38,629 nucleotides of DNA, taken from positions 1 to 38,629 of IMG/VR virus record IMGVR_UViG_3300002138_000044. The stretch is one strand, 5' to 3'. The notes beneath the pieces are model-generated. The model did no database searches, was not told the origin of the DNA, and saw only the letters and a list, made by a program, of their open reading frames with translations. The position numbers and the translations under genes were made by a program. Positions 6,476 through 29,372 of this stretch are shown one piece after another. Source of the DNA: a virus. Numbering within the stretch: the first letter of the stretch is position 1; the number at the start of each line of letters is the position of its first letter.

Positions 6476-6517
6476 CCTGCTAGTTGGAGTATAAATAACT
6501 ATATACCAACTAGCAGG
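6476..6517 (+). promoter_or_regulatory. Hairpin containing a late promoter; sequesters the endonuclease ribosome site
   Basis: Perfect 12-bp inverted repeat CCTGCTAGTTGG (6476-6487) and CCAACTAGCAGG (6506-6517). The 18-base loop holds TATAAATA (6490-6497), a T4-type late promoter. The AGGA Shine-Dalgarno for ATG 6528 overlaps the 3' arm. Read-through RNA would hide the site; RNA started from the late promoter, near 6503, lacks the 5' arm and leaves it open. Confidence 0.8.
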
Positions 6518-13242: not shown

Positions 13243-13250
13243 TATAAATA
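13243..13250 (+). promoter_or_regulatory. T4-type late promoter
   Basis: TATAAATA, exactly the T4 late consensus, 5 bases after the terminator and 28 bases before the gene at 13278. It marks the switch from the modification operon to the capsid-related block. Confidence 0.75.
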
Positions 13251-13277: not shown

Positions 13278-14081
13278 ATGGCTGCACAACAAGGGTTTTT
13301 ATATGAAGAAAACGCATATCATGCGTTACAAAGATATAAAATATCAACTGGTGGAGTTGCCGGCGCATCTCATGATAAACCAGACTTATCATTGGTAACT
13401 AAATCTATAAAAACTCCAGCTGGATGTGAATTAAAGATTTCTCCTACAGCAGCAGGCTCTTTAGTTATGAAGTATTATAAAGGTAAGTGGGACTATGGTG
13501 ATACTAAAGGCGATTCAGAAAAAGAACTAATGAAATCCATTGGTATCACATATAAGCTGTTGGATAATATGAATAAGTCTGGTACTGCTGGTAAAGATTG
13601 GCGTGATAAGATTCCAGTTCTACAAAATGACGCTAGTGGAAAGAAAGTACTAGCTTTAGGATTTACCGATAAAAGAAAAGCATATGCGCACGATATAAAG
13701 AATTTCGGTGGAACTAACGAAGTGCACATCGATGTTCCAGCAAAAGCTATATGTGATTACTATAATAAAAAGAAAACACAATATTTAAATGTTGGTACTC
13801 ACGGGTTTTTTCTGATGAACAAATCAGATCCTCTTAAATTAAATTCTAAACTCACTACTAAGATTCCAGACTTTGCGTCGTCTGCGTCTGCAAGAATTCG
13901 TATTAGATGCCAACCTAAGGGTGGCGGAGATTATCAATTTGTCATGACATTAGAGTTTAGTAAAGTCTCTAAGTCGCCATATAATCTTTGTCCAATCGAA
14001 TCTCCAACAAACGTTTCTATTAAGTTGTCTGAATATAAAACTCCAGCTAATATGCAGCTATTATTGGCTTTCTCACAATAA
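13278..14081 (+). CDS. PD-(D/E)XK nuclease-like protein under a late promoter
   Basis: 267 aa. The N-terminus carries a nuclease-like pattern: E11 in a first helix (GFLYEENAYHALQRY), D36 in DKPDLSLV and E51-L-K53 in GCELKISPT. The rest has a basic middle part and a beta-rich C-terminus (ARIRIRCQPKGGGDY, NVSIKLSEYKTP). I do not recognise the family by name. Late expression and position at the head of the capsid block suggest a head- or packaging-related nuclease, but this is inference. ACGGAA serves as a weak Shine-Dalgarno. Confidence 0.6.
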   Translation: MAAQQGFLYEENAYHALQRYKISTGGVAGASHDKPDLSLVTKSIKTPAGCELKISPTAAGSLVMKYYKGKWDYGDTKGDSEKELMKSIGITYKLLDNMNKSGTAGKDWRDKIPVLQNDASGKKVLALGFTDKRKAYAHDIKNFGGTNEVHIDVPAKAICDYYNKKKTQYLNVGTHGFFLMNKSDPLKLNSKLTTKIPDFASSASARIRIRCQPKGGGDYQFVMTLEFSKVSKSPYNLCPIESPTNVSIKLSEYKTPANMQLLLAFSQ

Positions 14082-14127: not shown

Positions 14128-14742
14128 ATGCTAAAATTTAAAGAATATTTGCTGGAAGAAGAAGGAAGCGGAAGCTTATCGATATTCGATATCGATGATA
14201 CTCTATTCCACACTACTGCTCAGATAGCAGTGATGCACAGCGGAAAAGTTCTGAAGAAACTAACTAATCAAGAATTTAATAATTATAAACTGAATCCAGG
14301 AGAATCATTTGATTTCGATGAATTCAAAGATGCTCATAAATTCTATCACGAATCAAAGCCTATAACTAAAATGCTTGCTAAGGCAAAAGCCATTTTAGCA
14401 AATTCGCAAAAGAACCCAAACAGCAAAGTAATTATCCTTACAGCTAGATCAAACTTTAATGATAAAGATAAGTTCCTAGCAACATTCCGCAAATACGGAT
14501 TTGATATTGATAAAGTATACGTTGAACGCGCAGGTGAATTAGTTGGTGATGAAGTTCCTGCAATTAAGAAAGCTATCATCATTACTAAATACTTAAATAC
14601 AAAACAATTTAGTAAAGTTAGATTATTCGACGATTCAATGAGTAATCTAAAAGAGTTCTTAAAGTTAAGAACAAAATTCAATCATGTGAAGTTTGAAGCA
14701 TATTTTGCTTTACCTAATGGATCAATTAAGACAATAAAATAA
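14128..14742 (+). CDS. HAD-family phosphatase with capsid-targeting-like N-terminus
   Basis: 204 aa. All four HAD motifs are present: DIDDT (D21, D23), ILTARS (T105), K147/K148, and LFDDS (D168, D169). HAD proteins of this phage type include the 3'-phosphatase domain of polynucleotide kinase, though the substrate here is not shown. The first residues MLKFKEYLLEEE resemble the T4 capsid-targeting peptide (MKTYQEFIAEA), which sends proteins into the prohead and is cut by gp21 after x-E. The stop overlaps the next ATG (TAATG), coupling it to the ligase-like gene. No strong ribosome site. Confidence 0.8.
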   Translation: MLKFKEYLLEEEGSGSLSIFDIDDTLFHTTAQIAVMHSGKVLKKLTNQEFNNYKLNPGESFDFDEFKDAHKFYHESKPITKMLAKAKAILANSQKNPNSKVIILTARSNFNDKDKFLATFRKYGFDIDKVYVERAGELVGDEVPAIKKAIIITKYLNTKQFSKVRLFDDSMSNLKEFLKLRTKFNHVKFEAYFALPNGSIKTIK

Positions 14743-15971
14743 TGTTAAACTTAAAAGAATATCTTAAAGAAGAAAAGAATACTCACATGGAGCACGTTGA
14801 AGATTTAGTCTTCAACGAAGGCGTAAACGGCACACGTAATGCAATTAATTTTTTACGTTCATTAAGAGATATGCTTGCGGGTAATACAAAATCTCCAATT
14901 ACCTCAACAGTAAAATGGGATGGAGCTCCAGCAATTTTTGCTGGTATTGACCCAAGTGATGGAAAGTTCTTCATTGCTAAAAAAGGTATTTTCAATAAAT
15001 CTCCAAAGATATATAAAACTCCAGCAGAAATTGATGCTGATACTAGCGGTGATCTTGCTGCAAAATTTAAAATAGCATTAAAAGAATTCTCTAAATTCGG
15101 AATTAAATCTGGTGTATATCAAGGTGATCTAATGTTCACCGATGATAAAGCTACGCTAGAAATAAACGGAGAAAAGTATATTACGTTTCATCCTAACACT
15201 ATTGTGTATGCAGTACCATACGATTCCATGCTTGGTAAAAAAATACGTGCTGCTAAAATTGGAGTTGTTTGGCATACTACGTATGAAGGCAAATCATTTG
15301 AGAATATGCAAGCATCCTTTGGTAAACCAATCGTAAATAAATTTAATACTTCATCTAGTGTATGGATGGACGACGCAAATTACAAAGACTATTCGGGTAC
15401 AGCTACTTTCACAGCAGAGGAAACAAAGAAAGTAACTGATGTGTTATCACGTGCTGGTGCTCTATTTAATTCAATCAGTGCTCAAACTCTTAATGGGATA
15501 AGCAACGATGAAGACTTATTGCTTGCGGTTAAAACCTTTAATAATACAAAAATTCGAAAGATGGAACAAATTAGTGATACTAGAGCCCACGTACGAGAAC
15601 TCTTCCACTACATCCACGAAAAATACCAAAAAGAAATCGAAAAGCGTAAAACGCCGACCGGCAAAAAAACACAAGAAGACTCCCGCACAAAAATCTTAAG
15701 CTTCTTTGCTCATCATGATCAAAACCAAATTGTAGCTATATTTGATTTAGTGAATTTGCTTGTTGAAGCTAAGAAAATGATTATAGAAAAAATGAACAAA
15801 GCTGGGCATATATCTACATTCTTAAAAACTAAAACCGGCTTTAAAACTACTGGCGTAGAAGGGTTTGTAGCAATCGATCATTTAAAGGGTGGAGCAGTTA
15901 AAATAGTAGATCGAATGGAATTTAGTTATGCAAACTTTTCACCAGAAATTCTTAAAGGATGGCAACGATGA
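14742..15971 (+). CDS. Ligase/capping-type nucleotidyltransferase-like protein
   Basis: 409 aa. I read covalent nucleotidyltransferase motifs: I as TVKWDGAPAI (K58-x-D60-G61), III-like GVYQGDLMF (124-132), IIIa-like HPNTIVYAVPYD, IV as EGFVAI (373-378) and V as AVKIV (386-390). These are the nucleotide-binding motifs of DNA/RNA ligases and capping enzymes. The C-terminal OB domain of DNA ligases is absent and a helical insert lies at about 240-340. A known phage family (DUF6267) seems to fit, from memory. N-terminus MLNLKEYLKEEK is capsid-targeting-like. Bases 15582-15702 switch to C-ending codons unlike the rest. Coupled to the HAD phosphatase, giving a possible end-healing/sealing pair. Confidence 0.65.
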   Translation: MLNLKEYLKEEKNTHMEHVEDLVFNEGVNGTRNAINFLRSLRDMLAGNTKSPITSTVKWDGAPAIFAGIDPSDGKFFIAKKGIFNKSPKIYKTPAEIDADTSGDLAAKFKIALKEFSKFGIKSGVYQGDLMFTDDKATLEINGEKYITFHPNTIVYAVPYDSMLGKKIRAAKIGVVWHTTYEGKSFENMQASFGKPIVNKFNTSSSVWMDDANYKDYSGTATFTAEETKKVTDVLSRAGALFNSISAQTLNGISNDEDLLLAVKTFNNTKIRKMEQISDTRAHVRELFHYIHEKYQKEIEKRKTPTGKKTQEDSRTKILSFFAHHDQNQIVAIFDLVNLLVEAKKMIIEKMNKAGHISTFLKTKTGFKTTGVEGFVAIDHLKGGAVKIVDRMEFSYANFSPEILKGWQR

Positions 15972-15993
15972 TTAAGAAAATGGAATTGCTAAT

Positions 15994-16614
15994 ATGAAAA
16001 CATTAAAGCAATATATTTTAGAGAATGAAGATCATAATCATCCTAAAAATTGGAAAGTAGAGAAGATGCATAGGGATGATACCTTTAATGGCAAAACGCG
16101 TTGGGATATTAAAGATAAAAGTGGAGAGATTATAGATTCTCATGAAACCTCGGCCGATGCTCATCATTATCTAAAAAATTGGCGCAAAAGATACACTGAT
16201 AGAATACTGCCAAAGAATACTGTCAAAGAATCTTTGATTATGGATAAGCCAATTCACACTAAGACAATTTCTGCTGATGAATTAATGAAACACATTGGTA
16301 GATCTAAAATAAAATCGATTGCTAAACATCCATTTCATCGAGAGTATGTTTCAGGCAGCCATTTGGGAAATGCAGGATATCAATATCATCGCGATTCACA
16401 TGGTTTTGAGCATGTTCTTGCTTCTCATACTGAACCATTGAAGGGAAAAGATGGAACTGAGAGAAGAAGAATGGTGAAATTTGATTTGTATAAGAATCAT
16501 GTAGACAACGCGCATCTATTTCATAATAAAAACAATGAACGTCACCATCCCGATGACGGCGGTAATCGTATCTGGCGCCATATAAAAAGTCATAAAGAGG
16601 AAAATGTTAGCTAA
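15994..16614 (+). CDS. Unknown protein with capsid-targeting-like N-terminus
   Basis: 206 aa, His- and Lys-rich, no recognised domain. It starts MKTLKQYILENED, very close to the T4 internal-protein leader MKTYQEFIAEA. The following part (WKVEKMHRDDTFNGKTRWDI, then DKSGEIIDSHETSADAHHYL) looks like a small beta/alpha module. The C-terminal half is basic with many histidines, fitting a DNA-contacting head protein. It lies 22 bases after the ligase-like gene. Confidence 0.7.
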   Translation: MKTLKQYILENEDHNHPKNWKVEKMHRDDTFNGKTRWDIKDKSGEIIDSHETSADAHHYLKNWRKRYTDRILPKNTVKESLIMDKPIHTKTISADELMKHIGRSKIKSIAKHPFHREYVSGSHLGNAGYQYHRDSHGFEHVLASHTEPLKGKDGTERRRMVKFDLYKNHVDNAHLFHNKNNERHHPDDGGNRIWRHIKSHKEENVS

Positions 16615-16663
16615 AGCAAAACATAGAAAAGATAAATAATCAATAACTAATTGATGGAATCAC

Positions 16664-18220
16664 ATGAAACAATTTAGACAACTTATAAAAGAGTTGCCGT
16701 CAAAGAAAGTAGTATTTGCCTTCGGTCGTTTTCAACCGCCAACGACTGGCCATGAGCTATTGGTAAATGCTGTAAAAAAGATCGCTTCTTCTCAGAAAGC
16801 AGATCATATCATATTTGCTTCTCGTACTCACGATAAAAAAAGCAATCCACTTCCAGTAGATCGTAAAGTATATTATCTTAAACGAATGTTTCCAAAGACT
16901 AACTTCGTTGCAGCTAATGAAGAAATTAGAACGTTTATGGAAGCAGCAAAAGCGCTAAGTAAAAAGTATAAGAATCTTATAATGCTTGCTGGCTCTGATA
17001 GAGTTCCAGAATATAAAAAGCTACTCGAAAAATATAACGGAGATGTGTTTCATTTCGATACTATCGAAGTAATATCTGCTGGTGAAAGAGATCCAGATGC
17101 TGATAGTGCTTCTGGTATGTCGGGTACTAAAATGAGAGAGGCCGCTAAAAAGAATGATTTTACTTCTTTTAAAAGAGGTCTACCACACGTATTAACTGAA
17201 TTAGATGGTAAACGCCTGATGAATGAGATTCGTCAAGGCATGGGTATGGATGTAATTAAAGAACAGATTAAGTTCGAAACAAACAATGTTCGTGAAAAGT
17301 ATTTTGCTAATGAAATATTCCACGTAGATGATATCGTTGAATCTAATGGATGCGTTCTAAAAATAATTAAACGTGGCTCAAATCACTTATTAGTGGAAAA
17401 TGAATTGGGAGAAAAGATTAGCAAATTCCCACAAGATTTACAAGAATCTAAAAAAGAATTTAAAGGAATAAACGAAATGATCATCAAATCGCAAGATAAA
17501 CTAAAAGTTGCAAGAATTATTGCATCTTCACTTGGTACCGAAGATGTAGATGAAAAGAGCGGTGCTGAGCAGATGGTTAATCTTGCGCTGCGTAAAATCA
17601 AGAGCAAGAATTTAACTGCTGAAGGATGGAAGATTTTAGGCAACATGCTTAAACTTGCAACTGATGCAGGTATTAAATATGATTCATCTATAATTCCAGA
17701 AACTAAATTCAAATTGATGGGTTTAGCAGAAGATGCAGATGATCTATCTGATATCGATGATTCAGATATAGACGGCTTTATCGAGTCTTTAACTGAAGAC
17801 GATTATCTGGAAGTGTACGATGACGATGAACTTTCTATTGTTGATGTTGAGACTGGAGAGCATATTGAAGAACTTAAAGAAGAAGTTCTTGATGAAGTAT
17901 TATCTCGCGCAGAAAGAATTCGTTCTAAGTTAAGATTTTCAAGAACAGCTGCAAAGCGTGAACGTAGAACAGCTATTGCGCTTAAATCACATTCTAATAC
18001 TTCTACTATAAACAAAAGAGCACGTAGATTAGCTATTATAACTATGAAGAAACGTTTAGTTAAGAAACCTCTTAACACTTTATCAGTTTCTGAAAAAGAA
18101 AGAGTAGAGCGTATCATTGCACAACGCAAAAACGTTATTAATAGAATGGCTATGAAATTAGTACCTAATGTTAAAAGAATAGAAAACGATAGGCTTTCAC
18201 ATAAGAATTACACGAAATAA
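16664..18220 (+). CDS. Cytidylyltransferase-like (NMNAT/HIGH-type) enzyme with basic C-terminal domain
   Basis: 518 aa. Residues 16-190 are a nucleotidyltransferase domain: FGRFQPPTTGH (20-30; HIGH-like), LAGSDRV (108-114) and SGTKMR (153-158; ISSTxxR-like). This is the pattern of NMN adenylyltransferases and related enzymes, so NAD+ or a nucleotide-activated metabolite may be made. Middle residues (about 195-400) are acidic (DDLSDIDDSDIDGF). Residues 415-515 are strongly basic and helical (RSKLRFSRTAAKRERR), a tail I have seen in head-associated proteins of T4-like marine phages. N-terminus MKQFRQLIKELPS is capsid-targeting-like. A late-promoter-like GATAAATA (one mismatch) is at 16631-16638. 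Confidence 0.75.
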   Translation: MKQFRQLIKELPSKKVVFAFGRFQPPTTGHELLVNAVKKIASSQKADHIIFASRTHDKKSNPLPVDRKVYYLKRMFPKTNFVAANEEIRTFMEAAKALSKKYKNLIMLAGSDRVPEYKKLLEKYNGDVFHFDTIEVISAGERDPDADSASGMSGTKMREAAKKNDFTSFKRGLPHVLTELDGKRLMNEIRQGMGMDVIKEQIKFETNNVREKYFANEIFHVDDIVESNGCVLKIIKRGSNHLLVENELGEKISKFPQDLQESKKEFKGINEMIIKSQDKLKVARIIASSLGTEDVDEKSGAEQMVNLALRKIKSKNLTAEGWKILGNMLKLATDAGIKYDSSIIPETKFKLMGLAEDADDLSDIDDSDIDGFIESLTEDDYLEVYDDDELSIVDVETGEHIEELKEEVLDEVLSRAERIRSKLRFSRTAAKRERRTAIALKSHSNTSTINKRARRLAIITMKKRLVKKPLNTLSVSEKERVERIIAQRKNVINRMAMKLVPNVKRIENDRLSHKNYTK

Positions 18221-18229
18221 GAGAATATA

Positions 18230-18673
18230 ATGGATGAATTAATACTATCAATAAAAAAGTGTTTAGCTAATACTTTCGTATTTTATTTTAAAACACACGG
18301 CTTTCATTGGAATGTTGAAGGTATTAATTTTCCAACTTATCATGCTTTCTTCGAAGCTTTATACCAAGATCTTTATGGTGCAATAGATCCTCTTGCTGAA
18401 GAGATTCGAGCTTTAGATACATATGCTCCAAGTGGACTTAACGAATTATATAGTAATGCTTCTATTAGCGATAGCGATATTAAAGGCGATAATATAAAAG
18501 ATATGTTAGAAGCAGCTTTAAAAGATAACACGATAGTTGTTGGTTGTTTAACAACATCTCTTACGCTTGCTACTCGAGAAAATAAACAAGGGTTAGTAAA
18601 TTTCTTAGCCGATAGAATTGATGCTCATAAAAAGCATGAGTGGATGATTCGTTCTTGCATAAAGGGAGCATAA
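18230..18673 (+). CDS. dps: Dps-like miniferritin
   Basis: 147 aa. Dps proteins form 12-subunit shells that oxidise and store iron and protect DNA from peroxide. All ferroxidase ligands are present with exact family spacing: H26 (with W27 in GFHWNVEG), H38, D53 and E57 (DPLAEEIRAL), matching E. coli Dps H51, H63, D78, E82. There is no N-terminal lysine tail for DNA binding. It lies 9 bases after the cytidylyltransferase-like gene with AGAG as ribosome site, and its stop is 2 bases before the next ATG, inside the capsid-related block. Confidence 0.9.
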   Translation: MDELILSIKKCLANTFVFYFKTHGFHWNVEGINFPTYHAFFEALYQDLYGAIDPLAEEIRALDTYAPSGLNELYSNASISDSDIKGDNIKDMLEAALKDNTIVVGCLTTSLTLATRENKQGLVNFLADRIDAHKKHEWMIRSCIKGA

Positions 18674-18675
18674 AT

Positions 18676-20610
18676 ATGGCAGATACACGAGAAGTACAAG
18701 ATACATCTGATTATAAATTAGATAAGCAGGGTAAAAAAATTAAAGCTCATCGAATCATTTTTTCTAAAGGTGAAGATGATGGCAAGGGGAGAGTAACAGA
18801 AAATATGAAAAAATCATTCAGTTCTTTTATAGAACAACACACTGAATTGCTGGAAGCTAAATGCTCAGAATGTGGTGAAAAAATGCACAATGGAGATTGC
18901 GAAATGCAAGAAAGTCGCGGCCATAGCATTATAGCTACCAAATTAAAGCAAATAGATGCTCGGAAGACTAGAGATGCTGATGCACTTAAGCGTCACAATG
19001 AAATGCTTTCCAATATTGCAACTAGCAGTGCATCACCTGAACATAAAAAGGCTGCGATTGATGCCTTGAATAAAAAAGGTGTGACTGAAGCAAAAGCTGA
19101 TCCTCTTGGTTCTTGGATATCACATAAAGAATTTACCAATCCAAAAATATTCAAAACGCGCGAAGGTGCTAAAGCACATGCTGCAAAGACTGGTGGCACA
19201 GTTAATAGTAGCGAAGGTTATCACAGATTGAAGAAAGACCAAATTAAGGAAGACAACATGCAAAACCAACAAAGACTTAAAGATGCTTTAGCTCGGCACT
19301 CCGATAAACTCACTGCAGCTAATAATTCCGGCGATAACATTGCAAGTCAAGTTCATCAAAAATACATTAATAAAATTAAAAATAAAATGAAAGAAGAAGT
19401 TGAAAGTGTAGATGAAGAACAGATCGACGAATTGTCTGTTAATAAAATGTTAAAATATACTGATGCTGCTAATAAAAATAGAGAAGTATTGAATAGGAAA
19501 TGGGATACAGGAACTGCTACCGAACGAGAAAAAAATAAAGTCCTCAGCCACGAAAAAGGTGAAGACCATGCTGCTACTCGTGTCAAAGCAAAAACTGGTA
19601 AGTATCCTGAACAAATTGGCAAATTATCAAGAATGAAATATGCAATAACAAAAGAAGGTGTAGAGGAAGAAGTCGACCAGATCGACGAAAAGCATTTAGT
19701 TAATGTGACTGTGTCTGATCCAAATCACACAATGGTTTCTAAGCGTAAAGAAACAACACAAAGACGTGCTTCAGTAACAGCAGAAAATCGTGAACATGCT
19801 GTTGATACTGCAATTAAGCATTATGAGAAACAAGGCTATAAAGTTCATGACCATCAATATGTTGGAATGAAAGAAGAAGCTCTTAAAGCAGATAGAGGAT
19901 ATAAGAAAACTGTATCGGAAGCTGCTCAAAACGTTGCAGCGCATGTTAAGACTAATAAATATTCATGGGGAACAATGAAGACTGTTCATCAGGGATCTTC
20001 TTTTTCCATTCCTCTTCATCCAGAACATCACGAGGCAATTGCTAAATTGAAAGATCAACAAGAGCACAAATTCAAAGACGAAACAGGTCATCATTGGACA
20101 GCTAAACGTCAAGGAGATGATGTTCATTTCCAAGGCGCAAATGGTGGTAACTCTACTAAAGTTCCACATAAAGCTATTGCAGAATCTAAAGAAGATGTTC
20201 CATTTGATGGACCATATAAATCAGTTTTCAAGAAACCTAATAATCCAAATCGCACTGGTATGGATGCTGCTCGAGCTTTAGCTCAAAAAGGAGCAGAAAG
20301 AGCAAAGAAAGAAAAAATGAAAGAAGAAAAGAAAACATTTAAAGATTTTCTGAATGACTTAAATGAAATTAAAATGTCAGATTTGCCAAAGCGTACAGTA
20401 AAAGGTAACAGCTATGGCGCTCAATATCATGATCCAGAAGGTGACGATGATGCTGACAAGAAAAAACCACAACCAAACACAGCTGAAAAGCGTGGTCGTG
20501 GAAGACCTGCTGGATCGAAATCAGGAGCAAACTTTGGCGCAGCTTCTAAAAACAAATCTGGTGTAGAATATACTGGGTATAAATTACACTTGCCAAACTC
20601 TAACAGATAA
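18676..20610 (+). CDS. Modular internal/core protein with protease-like sites and an AT-hook
   Basis: 644 aa; start ATG 18676 chosen because AAGGGAG precedes it. It is low-complexity, Lys/Glu/His-rich and built from short modules. Inside are capsid-targeting-like segments: MKKSFSSFIEQ (44-54) and KKTFKDFLNDLNE (552-564). Many x-E junctions resemble gp21 cleavage sites (e.g. LLEA, IDEL, IAES). The acidic module EEQIDELS recurs as EEVDQIDEK and as EEVEEIDELS in the protein at 22131. A possible zinc knuckle is C63-x-x-C66 with C75. RGRGRP (606-611) near the C-terminus is a canonical AT-hook for AT-rich DNA. I infer a prohead-core or internal head protein cut during maturation. No enzyme domain is seen. 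Confidence 0.65.
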   Translation: MADTREVQDTSDYKLDKQGKKIKAHRIIFSKGEDDGKGRVTENMKKSFSSFIEQHTELLEAKCSECGEKMHNGDCEMQESRGHSIIATKLKQIDARKTRDADALKRHNEMLSNIATSSASPEHKKAAIDALNKKGVTEAKADPLGSWISHKEFTNPKIFKTREGAKAHAAKTGGTVNSSEGYHRLKKDQIKEDNMQNQQRLKDALARHSDKLTAANNSGDNIASQVHQKYINKIKNKMKEEVESVDEEQIDELSVNKMLKYTDAANKNREVLNRKWDTGTATEREKNKVLSHEKGEDHAATRVKAKTGKYPEQIGKLSRMKYAITKEGVEEEVDQIDEKHLVNVTVSDPNHTMVSKRKETTQRRASVTAENREHAVDTAIKHYEKQGYKVHDHQYVGMKEEALKADRGYKKTVSEAAQNVAAHVKTNKYSWGTMKTVHQGSSFSIPLHPEHHEAIAKLKDQQEHKFKDETGHHWTAKRQGDDVHFQGANGGNSTKVPHKAIAESKEDVPFDGPYKSVFKKPNNPNRTGMDAARALAQKGAERAKKEKMKEEKKTFKDFLNDLNEIKMSDLPKRTVKGNSYGAQYHDPEGDDDADKKKPQPNTAEKRGRGRPAGSKSGANFGAASKNKSGVEYTGYKLHLPNSNR

Positions 20611-20625
20611 ACAAGGAGAAATCAC

Positions 20626-21189
20626 ATGGCATTATGGGGAAATACAGACGTAGCAGGCAGCAAGCCAAAATTCTTAAACACTGCTGATAAAGCACGAGCA
20701 GTTTTTGTATCAAGCGAAGAAGCTGCACTTGCTACTAATAAAAAGAAGGGTATCAATGGAGCCGGTTGGTGGCTAGTTGATGAGTATAAAGATTCGGGTG
20801 GAGAATCACGGTATAAGACAGAATTGTTAGTAGCTATGCGTATAGCTAATGCAACATCTGGTGATGCTTCCGATGATACAATCGCGGCCGACGTTGAAGT
20901 TACTCTCACTATCAGCGCTCAACCAACTGCTCAGAATACTTCGACTGGTGGTGCAACATTTGGTGTTACTGCAACAGTAAGTTCTGGTTCAGTAACATAC
21001 CAGTGGCAACGTGCTGCAGCCGCAACAGATACACGATTTGTTAATGTGTCTGGTGCAACAAGTGCAACTATAGCATTAACAGGTCGTACTTCTGCTAATA
21101 CTGGAGACAAATATCGTTGTGTATTGTCATCTACGACTGGCGCAGCAAAGGTTAATACTAACGCAGTTGCGCTAACGTTTGTTAGCTAA
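20626..21189 (+). CDS. Virion decoration-type protein with Ig-like domain
   Basis: 187 aa. AAGGAG precedes ATG 20626. The N-terminus MALWGNTDVAGSKPKFLN is one I associate with structural proteins of T4-like marine phages. Residues 90-187 form an Ig-like beta-sandwich: SVTYQWQRAAA, then GATSATIALTG, and GDKYRCVLSS with the YRC strand. Such domains occur on Hoc-like and other capsid-surface or tail proteins and are thought to bind host surfaces. The compact, Thr/Ala/Ser-rich composition fits secretion-free virion display. A UUCG hairpin follows the stop. Confidence 0.75.
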   Translation: MALWGNTDVAGSKPKFLNTADKARAVFVSSEEAALATNKKKGINGAGWWLVDEYKDSGGESRYKTELLVAMRIANATSGDASDDTIAADVEVTLTISAQPTAQNTSTGGATFGVTATVSSGSVTYQWQRAAAATDTRFVNVSGATSATIALTGRTSANTGDKYRCVLSSTTGAAKVNTNAVALTFVS

Positions 21190-21203
21190 TAATTATTAAT
21201 AAG

Positions 21204-21219
21204 AGGGGCTTCGGCCCCT
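21204..21219 (+). other. GC-rich UUCG-type hairpin after the Ig-like gene
   Basis: AGGGGC (21204-21209) and GCCCCT (21214-21219) enclose the stable TTCG tetraloop. There is no T-run after it, so it may protect the 3' end of mRNA or terminate weakly. Confidence 0.6.
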
Positions 21220-21229
21220 GCATATCGTT

Positions 21230-21583
21230 ATGAAATTAACTGAAAGTAACTTTCTTCTCTATGCTATGCATCATTACGATAATCCGCAATGTTCTAGCGT
21301 AGATGAGTTTGAAGAAGATCTCAAAAGGTTTCTATATCTTAAGAAGTTGTTTAGTAGATATAAAAACGACAATGAATTGAGAGAGCGCCTCATATTAAAT
21401 CATGTTATTGTTTTATATAATGTGTTTAATGAGGCGGCTACTGATATGTTATTTTTGAAACTCGAAAAAGAATACGAACCACAGTTAGTCACATTTTTGA
21501 TTTATCTAAATAGATTATCTGAAGAAAAATTTGGCCATGTGCCAGTAGACTTAGAAATTGCAAAGGCTTTAAGGAAAATTTAA
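21230..21583 (+). CDS. Conserved helical phage protein, unknown
   Basis: 117 aa, all-alpha by appearance, with mixed charge (FEEDLKRFLYLKKLFSRYKN). It seems to belong to a small family conserved in T4-like phages, from general recollection only. The stop shares its last base with the next start (TAATG at 21581-21585), so the pair is coupled. No catalytic motif or membrane segment. Confidence 0.7.
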   Translation: MKLTESNFLLYAMHHYDNPQCSSVDEFEEDLKRFLYLKKLFSRYKNDNELRERLILNHVIVLYNVFNEAATDMLFLKLEKEYEPQLVTFLIYLNRLSEEKFGHVPVDLEIAKALRKI

Positions 21584-22134
21584 TGTCAACGTTAGACAAT
21601 TTACTTGCATTTAGGATTCTTTATATGTTGGTTACTCCATTCGAGAAAACTGACGCGTATAAATTTGGAATCATCGATAAGGATGGTAAAGCGCTAAAAA
21701 AGACAAAAGATTTAAATACAAGCGAAGAAAAAGATTCATATACAAATCTTCATCGTCTTGTCTTTAATCTTAAAAAGCTATTGGCTAAAATACCAGGAGG
21801 CCAAAGTCAATTTGCTTCTCTTATTGCTGCGTACTGGTTGATAAAAGAAAACCAAACGCTTGCTCATAAACGCACAGTTATTCGTGAAGAAGAATTTACA
21901 TCTCTTATAGAATTAATTGAAGAAAAGAAATTGACATTGGTTGAAGAAGAAATACTAATAGAGAAATTTATTGCTATGATGGAAGATGGCGCAATTGCTA
22001 ATGTAACTGGAGCTAATACAGCTACCGATGAACCGGTTGTAAAATTAAAAAATAAAAAACCAGTTTCTGGAATTATTGGCAATAAACACTATATGTATCG
22101 TCGTAAAAAACTTGTACAAATGGGACAACAATGA
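21583..22134 (+). CDS. Conserved phage protein, unknown
   Basis: 183 aa, helical and Lys/Glu-rich, with the N-terminus LLAFRILYMLVTPFEKTDAY and a short basic C-terminus GNKHYMYRRKKLVQMG. The pattern LLAxRILxxLVTPFxxT seems familiar from T4-like marine phages, but the function is unknown. Its stop overlaps the next gene by ATGA (22131-22134), linking it to the capsid-targeted protein downstream. Confidence 0.7.
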   Translation: MSTLDNLLAFRILYMLVTPFEKTDAYKFGIIDKDGKALKKTKDLNTSEEKDSYTNLHRLVFNLKKLLAKIPGGQSQFASLIAAYWLIKENQTLAHKRTVIREEEFTSLIELIEEKKLTLVEEEILIEKFIAMMEDGAIANVTGANTATDEPVVKLKNKKPVSGIIGNKHYMYRRKKLVQMGQQ

Positions 22135-23210
22135 AAAATTTTAAAGAGTTTTCTGCATTAGAAGAATCAGACGCAGCCTGGGCAGCCTCTATGGAAAAGC
22201 AGAAAGAGAATCGTCTAACTGCTGGAGATAAAAAGAAGTTAGACCAAACACGTTCTTTGCTTGCTAAAGAAAAGAAACCAGTTAAAGAATCTTTTAGACC
22301 TATGGATGAACCAAAATACGATCAATCTATTCAAGCTCGTCAAAAGAAAGCTGATGATGCTAAAAAGAAACTAGACCAAACACGTGCTTTGCTTGCTAAA
22401 GAAAAGAAACCACTCTCTGAATCTCATGCTGAGTTAAGCAAACATATTTCTGATTTCTCTAAGGGTGTTAAGTCCTCATCAGCAAAACAAAGCACCTATA
22501 AAAGAGATGGTAAACCTATCTCCAACATGAAGCATATTGAGACTGATTCAGATCACCAAGCAGTATTTAAACATCTACAAAAGATGGGTTATAAAAAGAC
22601 TTCTGGTTACGATCCAAAGCCACATGAGTTTGATATGCATCACAATCGTGATGAGATGACATCAAAGAGTGATCCAGTCCACCATTCATCTGGTGTTTCT
22701 GCTCATGTGGAAAAAGAACATGGTAGTAAGATGAAGGTTCACTTCACTCATCGTGGTATCAAAGAACATGTTGAAGAGATTTTAGCACAAGATTATATCA
22801 CCACTGTTAGAGACTACCTTCAATCAAAAGAAGAATTAGGTGAAGCTCATAAGCTTGGCGATAAAGTCATTATCAATAAAGGACCATCTTATGTAGTTGG
22901 TAAAACTGGACATATTGGTGAGATCCGTAGGCACTATATTGGTGCTCCTAAAACTTATACTATTGATCATGATGATGGTTCCATACAATTAAAATCAACT
23001 CACTTTAAAGCAGTTAAAGCAGTTAAAGAAGAAGTTGAAGAGATAGATGAATTATCTTCTGATCTTTTAAAGCAATATAAAAAGAATGCCAGTGATGCTG
23101 CAACCGCAGCAGACAAAGCTGGTAAGTATGACATTGGTCATAAACGCTTTAAGGGTATATTAAAAGCAACTTTCAAACAGTTTGCTAATGACGCTAAGAA
23201 AAACGGGTAA
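22131..23210 (+). CDS. Capsid-targeting-like internal protein with tandem repeat and KOW-like segment
   Basis: 359 aa. The N-terminus MKNFKEFSALEES matches the capsid-targeting pattern. Residues 34-54 and 78-98 are near-identical repeats (core LDQTRSLLAKEKKP and LDQTRALLAKEKKP). A His-rich middle is followed at about 240-290 by GDKVIINKG, VGKTGHIGEIRR and YTIDHDDG, which look like a small SH3/KOW-type barrel. The C-terminal module EEVEEIDELSSDLLKQYKKN also occurs in the 18676 protein. Several x-E junctions (LSES, VKES) fit head-protease cleavage. Probable internal head or core protein. Confidence 0.65.
   Translation: MKNFKEFSALEESDAAWAASMEKQKENRLTAGDKKKLDQTRSLLAKEKKPVKESFRPMDEPKYDQSIQARQKKADDAKKKLDQTRALLAKEKKPLSESHAELSKHISDFSKGVKSSSAKQSTYKRDGKPISNMKHIETDSDHQAVFKHLQKMGYKKTSGYDPKPHEFDMHHNRDEMTSKSDPVHHSSGVSAHVEKEHGSKMKVHFTHRGIKEHVEEILAQDYITTVRDYLQSKEELGEAHKLGDKVIINKGPSYVVGKTGHIGEIRRHYIGAPKTYTIDHDDGSIQLKSTHFKAVKAVKEEVEEIDELSSDLLKQYKKNASDAATAADKAGKYDIGHKRFKGILKATFKQFANDAKKNG
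22230..22424 (+). repeat. Two-copy coding repeat (22230-22292 and 22362-22424)
   Basis: The 21-codon unit is repeated with a few base changes, for example shared TTGCTTGCTAAAGAAAAGAA. Each copy ends in a potential protease site (VKES, LSES). It lies within the gene at 22131. Confidence 0.85.
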
Positions 23211-29364: not shown

Positions 29365-29372
29365 TATAAATA
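29365..29372 (+). promoter_or_regulatory. T4-type late promoter
   Basis: TATAAATA, exact consensus, immediately followed by the hairpin at 29373-29398. Transcription should begin near 29378, inside the 5' arm of that hairpin. Confidence 0.75.

Follow-up and report, generated by a model that had tools for sequence, protein, structure and literature searches.

A leader resembling the T4 capsid-targeting sequence marks unrelated enzymes of marine T4-like phages as probable head cargo

We analyzed the 38,629-base virus record IMGVR_UViG_3300002138_000044 (the window), a fragment of a marine T4-like phage that carries, by sequence, T4-type replication genes (DNA polymerase, UvsX-like, helicase, and nrdA/nrdB). 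Five proteins encoded in one region of the window, with starts at 14128, 14742, 15994, 16664, and 22131, begin with versions of one short peptide, which we call the leader (Table 1). We consider it likely that the leader combines a capsid-targeting sequence (CTS) of the T4 type with a prohead-protease propeptide, and that the enzymes bearing it are kept in the head and leave it with the DNA.

A preliminary description of this DNA had pointed out the five N-termini, and all were correctly read. Position 4 is F or L and position 7 is Y, L, or F in all five. The four that match without gaps (14128, 14742, 15994, and 16664) also have L/I at position 8 and E at position 10. The fifth, at 22131, is MKNFKEFSALEE; it has S8 and a shifted E, scores 6.1 bits ungapped, below our 8-bit threshold, and fits only as an offset variant in which MKxFKEF comes with an [L/I]xE site farther along, as in the T4 internal protein IPI. 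The leader was not present on the other genes of the span, namely those for a Dps-like protein (18230) and for proteins of 645 (18673), 187 (20626), 117 (21230), and 183 (21583) amino acids. The Dps/ferritin-like protein (PF00210, 1.9e-22; 18230-18673) is without a leader although it lies within the leader block.

Homologs of the window's cytidylyltransferase-like and DUF6267 proteins were gathered from IMG/VR, and leaders were scored with a profile trained on other viruses, with the window excluded, at a threshold of 8 bits. In 159 related viral loci and the window, at least 8 bits were reached by 246 of 12,311 ATG starts versus 2 of 4,669 internal ATGs. About 0.02 leader matches would be expected by chance among the roughly 55 gene starts of the window, which gives a Poisson P for at least four of about 1e-8. 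A strict pattern matched 4 of the window's 316 ATG starts, all four at neighboring leader genes, and 2 of 2,645 in the phages DLP6 and HTVC008M, one of these being the DLP6 DUF6267 ortholog.

Across the same loci, the leader precedes 27 protein groups without mutual similarity, all on the strand of the block. Two of the families served to train the profile, so their matches do not count as independent evidence, unlike those in the remaining 25 groups, the window, and T4. Canonical leaders were found in 41 cytidylyltransferase and 48 DUF6267 homologs, shifted leaders in about 20 and 21, respectively, and the leader is present on the HAD phosphatase in six sequences, including that of the window. 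Many cytidylyltransferases carry it at the extreme N-terminus, with the catalytic domain starting some 100 residues later, and it forms a poorly ordered end in the predicted models of the HAD and DUF6267 proteins, with low predicted local distance difference test (pLDDT) scores (below 50 for DUF6267 residues 1-15). The leader is a detachable tag. Its codon use is similar to that of the rest of the gene, which argues for selection on the peptide, not on the DNA. Among leader-bearing proteins without an assigned function are those at 1918-2685 of locus L085 and 47-1258 of locus L118; in the former, DILI..IWIEVKM looks by eye like a nuclease motif.

The tag resembles a well-studied signal. The first ten residues of T4 IPIII are enough for packaging, and mutagenesis assigned residues 4 and 7 to targeting and residues 8 and 10 to processing (Mullaney and Black, as summarized in PMC9026906). 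Among 44 distinct, unfiltered DUF6267 leaders, the least variable positions are 10 (E in all), 4 (F/L), 8 (L/I), and 7 (Y/F), and 20 cytidylyltransferase leaders keep F4, F7, L/I8, E10, and A11. The low-variability positions (4, 7, 8, and 10) coincide with those of the T4 mutagenesis. When the marine profile was run on most of the T4 genome (1,256 ATGs), the top ranks went to gp61.1, IPIII, and IPII. In T4 IPI, the start is shared and the cut lies farther along (MKTFKEF...TITE↓A, where the arrow marks the cut), the same form as at 22131. Leader ends FLTE↓A and FLSE↓A match the propeptide cut region of gp23, at which the sites are FLTE↓A in T4 and, with the cut placed by alignment, LLTE↓A, LLGE↓A, and FLSE↓A in relatives. 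Each of the 7 contigs that bear the leader and exceed 50 kb encodes a protease of the gp21 family, and so do DLP6, Melnitz, and HTVC008M. The parallel to the T4 CTS drawn in the preliminary description thus stands as regards anatomy, conserved positions, and the recognition of IPII and IPIII by an independently built profile. A literature search on the CTS in cyanophages yielded one T4 review.

The best leader match in T4, gp61.1 (18966-19130 of L185), begins MKTFKEFIKED and has, behind the leader, a stretch resembling the N-terminal arm of mature gp23. Judged from its sequence, gp61.1 is possibly an unrecognized T4 internal protein.

Packaging of the cytidylyltransferase is likely. Orthologs have been reported in CsCl-purified virions of four cyanophages, S-SM1 (PMC3037559), S-SZBM1 (PMC9146016), S-CREM2 (PMC10665884), and S-SCSM1 (PMC9602691), and all four bear the leader (MKKFSAFLNEA, MRFRQFIIEA, MKNFSSFLTEA, and MKSFLQFLKEA, respectively). 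In S-SZBM1, the reported exponentially modified protein abundance index of the cytidylyltransferase was 0.26, versus 0.30 for gp21 and 0.19 for gp22, both head-internal (PMC9146016). The adjoining S-SZBM1 DUF6267 is leaderless, and none was seen in the virion proteome as given in that report (PMC9146016). The fused DUF6267-cytidylyltransferase of S-PM2 is likewise without a leader, which fits the negative result reported for the cytidylyltransferase in the S-PM2 virion study, perhaps a less sensitive one (PMC3037559). In the S-SCSM1 record, 7 of 9 genes of the matching block are labeled virion proteins, most of them without a leader; hence the leader is not required for every virion protein. 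The earlier proposal that a phosphatase, a ligase, and an NMNAT-like enzyme are packed in the head is therefore partly supported: cyanophage virion proteomes back it for the last of these, whereas for the phosphatase and the ligase we infer packaging from the same tag in their sequences. The passages of the cyanophage virion papers that discuss carriage or contamination make no mention of the leader (PMC10665884, PMC9602691).

Two reported virion proteins, S-CREM2 gp160 (L016:18343-19236) and S-SCSM1_97 (L017:33122-33307), have a segment in common with gp23, just past the gp23 cut site (blast match, gp23 residues 61-84). The C-terminus of the product of window 21583-22134 is similar to this segment by eye.

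We then considered what the tagged enzymes might do. The guess that the first is a HAD phosphatase is borne out by its catalytic motifs and fold: D21xD23, T105, K148, and D168-D169 are invariant in 6 homologs, as are F4 and E10 of the leader, and the linker behind it is variable. Its predicted model best matches the T4 Pnkp 3'-phosphatase (Z 13.7, 2.6 Å over 133 residues), with bacterial Pnkp1 second. AphA acid phosphatases score almost as high (Z 12.8), so nucleic acid is a putative substrate; as modeled, the protein resembles a Pnkp 3'-phosphatase. The neighboring DUF6267 protein, previously called ligase-like, appears from its sequence and model to resemble an RNA ligase with intact motifs. 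K58xD60G61 (motif I, KxDG), E373G374, and K387 (motifs IV and V) are invariant in 33 sequences, and the top 25 structural matches are all RNA ligases, including T4 RNA ligase 2, at modest scores (Z at most 7.2; best Foldseek E 0.048). Sequence searches of the PDB were uninformative for DUF6267, the HAD protein, and the cytidylyltransferase. In the loci of relatives, a phosphatase like the window HAD occurs in 9 of 89 and a kinase-like P-loop protein in 10 of 89, for which PHROG gives polynucleotide kinase (8.5e-8) and Pfam favors zeta toxin. A heal-and-seal function of these enzymes is plausible on motif and model grounds. HTVC008M has such a P-loop kinase (PNK-like or zeta-toxin-like; L006:6562-7224) between DUF6267 and the cytidylyltransferase.

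The cytidylyltransferase is a nucleotidylyltransferase of the HIGH superfamily by its signatures, GRFxPPTxGH and SxxxxR, both of which are invariant across 24 sequences. Its Pfam CTP_transf_like match is right at the cut-off, and at E 0.05 no PDB sequence matched it; the more specific label NMNAT is unproven. The protein has 15 [I/L]xE sites versus 7.4 in a shuffle; the density of such sites was not notable in most other proteins. Its C-terminal basic domain, which is probably DNA-binding, has a gene and a leader of its own in Melnitz and C48C1; in DLP6 the domain sits in the middle of the protein. The domain starts with xxE↓[AVL] in 57 of 72 homologs, versus 17% of random control windows, which suggests that the prohead protease may also free it where it is fused. 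Locus L042 contains a very long open frame that apparently joins a PAP2-like phosphatase motif (YPSGHSCGA) to a cytidylyltransferase. No Pfam or PHROG match was found for the 206-residue protein.

Table 1. Leaders, cargo genes, and a promoter candidate in the window
Feature	Position	Strand	Remarks
Candidate late promoter of T4 type, TATAAATA, ahead of block	13243..13250	+	27 nt before ATG at 13278
Leader MLKFKEYLLE↓ of HAD phosphatase	14128..14157	+	16.4 bits; predicted gp21 site after E10
HAD phosphatase, 204 aa, Pnkp 3'-phosphatase-like	14128..14742	+	Motifs, structure match, PHROG polynucleotide kinase 5.9e-7
Leader MLNLKEYLKE↓ of DUF6267	14742..14771	+	17.1 bits
DUF6267, RNA-ligase-like nucleotidyltransferase, 409 aa	14742..15971	+	PF19782 1.1e-104
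Leader MKTLKQYILE↓ of 206-aa protein	15994..16023	+	14.2 bits
206-aa His/Lys-rich protein	15994..16614	+	
Leader MKQFRQLIKE↓ of cytidylyltransferase	16664..16693	+	12.8 bits
Cytidylyltransferase-like HIGH-superfamily enzyme, 518 aa	16664..18220	+	phrog_3041 4.5e-69
C-terminal basic domain of cytidylyltransferase, behind predicted gp21 site (LDE↓V)	17897..18217	+	
Leader variant MKNFKEFSALE of 359-aa protein (tentative)	22131..22163	+	6.1 bits; resembles T4 IPI, later cut site
Repetitive protein, 359 aa; may be an internal head precursor	22131..23210	+	phrog_26930

In the mechanism we propose, aromatic residues 4 and 7 would dock the carrier protein on the prohead scaffold core late in infection, gp21 would cut behind the glutamate of [L/I]xE↓, and the mature enzyme would remain in the head with the DNA and exit with it at infection. 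The cargo would comprise the Pnkp-like 3'-phosphatase, the RNA-ligase-like nucleotidyltransferase, the HIGH-superfamily nucleotidylyltransferase with its basic tail, and two function-unassigned proteins. From such a tag we would expect the leader to be cut and the rest of the cargo to be packaged and ejected; the enzymes may then mend broken nucleic-acid ends on entry, and we hypothesize that the set is an injected repair kit. More specifically, a head-loaded end-healing and sealing set (Pnkp-like phosphatase, DUF6267, and sometimes a PNK-like kinase), brought in along with the genome, might mend nucleic-acid breaks inflicted by host defenses before phage gene expression, an idea we offer tentatively and hold to be rather less probable than its opposite. 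Several observations weigh against the proposed mechanism as a whole. The 38.6-kb window fragment has no head genes. HTVC008M has gp21, yet its orthologs have degenerate leaders only; the leader can thus decay in a relative with gp21. The virion evidence comes from orthologs in other phages, in which cutting of the leader is presumed, and we found no published report of DUF6267 or HAD in virions. Finally, authors of two of the proteome papers caution about co-purified contaminants (PMC10665884, PMC9602691).

That caution is the starting point of one alternative, in which the virion matches stem from contamination and the leader is an N-terminal helix that the proteins share for another use, such as membrane contact or binding to a common partner. 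Reported peptide counts are indeed low (2 in S-SZBM1 and 3 in S-CREM2), but the protein recurs in four independent proteomes, the cut site matches that of gp23, the profile recovers T4 IPII and IPIII, and residue 11 is mainly Ala in cytidylyltransferase leaders; we regard this explanation as improbable. Less easily set aside, though still unlikely in our judgment, is a prohead-core tag whose cargo works inside the assembling head (as scaffold filler, in DNA condensation, or in mending packaged DNA) and is never delivered. The basic domain that travels with the cargo would suit such a role, as would the basic nature of the T4 internal proteins (PMC9026906), and ejection is here deduced. On the other side, T4 internal proteins, Alt, and enzymes fused to the CTS enter the host by ejection (PMC9026906), the catalytic residues of the window enzymes are conserved, and a ligase would need ATP, which we would not expect in a DNA-filled head. 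Two further origins of the shared peptide would be suggested by genes that adjoin in one block: a single ancestral gene that was duplicated, or a DNA or RNA element conserved over the start codon. We rejected both, the former because the carriers fall into 27 groups without mutual similarity and the latter because synonymous codon use in the leader is like that of the gene body, and we give them almost no weight.

The candidate late promoter upstream of the block belongs to a motif, TATAAATA, that is not enriched in the window (5 found versus 6.0 expected). The three copies on the + strand (6490-6497, 13243-13250, and 29365-29372) all lie 20-30 nt before an open reading frame start, as T4 late promoters would.

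If the leader is a head-targeting tag, sequence by itself would suffice to predict head cargo in abundant marine phages, and many function-unassigned proteins would be marked as likely cargo. The tag would account for the recurrent cytidylyltransferase in cyanophage virion proteomes, for which the authors left cargo versus contaminant undecided, and it would make pre-loaded repair or counter-defense enzymes directly testable.

What we describe is probably an internal-protein tag of the T4 type, here carried by a set of enzymes. Like IPI, IPII, and IPIII with their CTS, the window proteins have a 10-residue N-terminal tag with aromatic positions 4 and 7, L/I8, E10, and often A11, together with a gp21-type site, and T4-like head genes are found in the window's relatives. 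Unlike in T4, the cargo consists of enzymes and many function-unassigned families from marine T4-like phages, and its packaging and cutting are predicted. The preliminary description set this cargo apart from the usual small internal proteins; that contrast was overstated, since T4 Alt, an ADP-ribosyltransferase, is already a large enzyme packaged in the head and ejected (PMC9026906). Alt differs in its N-terminus (MELITELFDE) and activity, whereas the window enzymes share one tag. The closest counterpart of the cytidylyltransferase is the cyanophage cytidylyltransferase/NMNAT-like virion protein (T4-GC190), of a homologous family, with the same leader and detected in virions; the protein of the window differs by its extra basic domain at the C-terminus. 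The pairing of a 3'-phosphatase-like HAD with an adjoining RNA-ligase-like enzyme recalls T4 Pnkp with RNA ligase and bacterial Pnkp/Hen1/Rnl; in contrast to those systems, the window has a separate small HAD, a divergent DUF6267, and a head-targeting tag, with a kinase-like P-loop protein in some of its relatives only.

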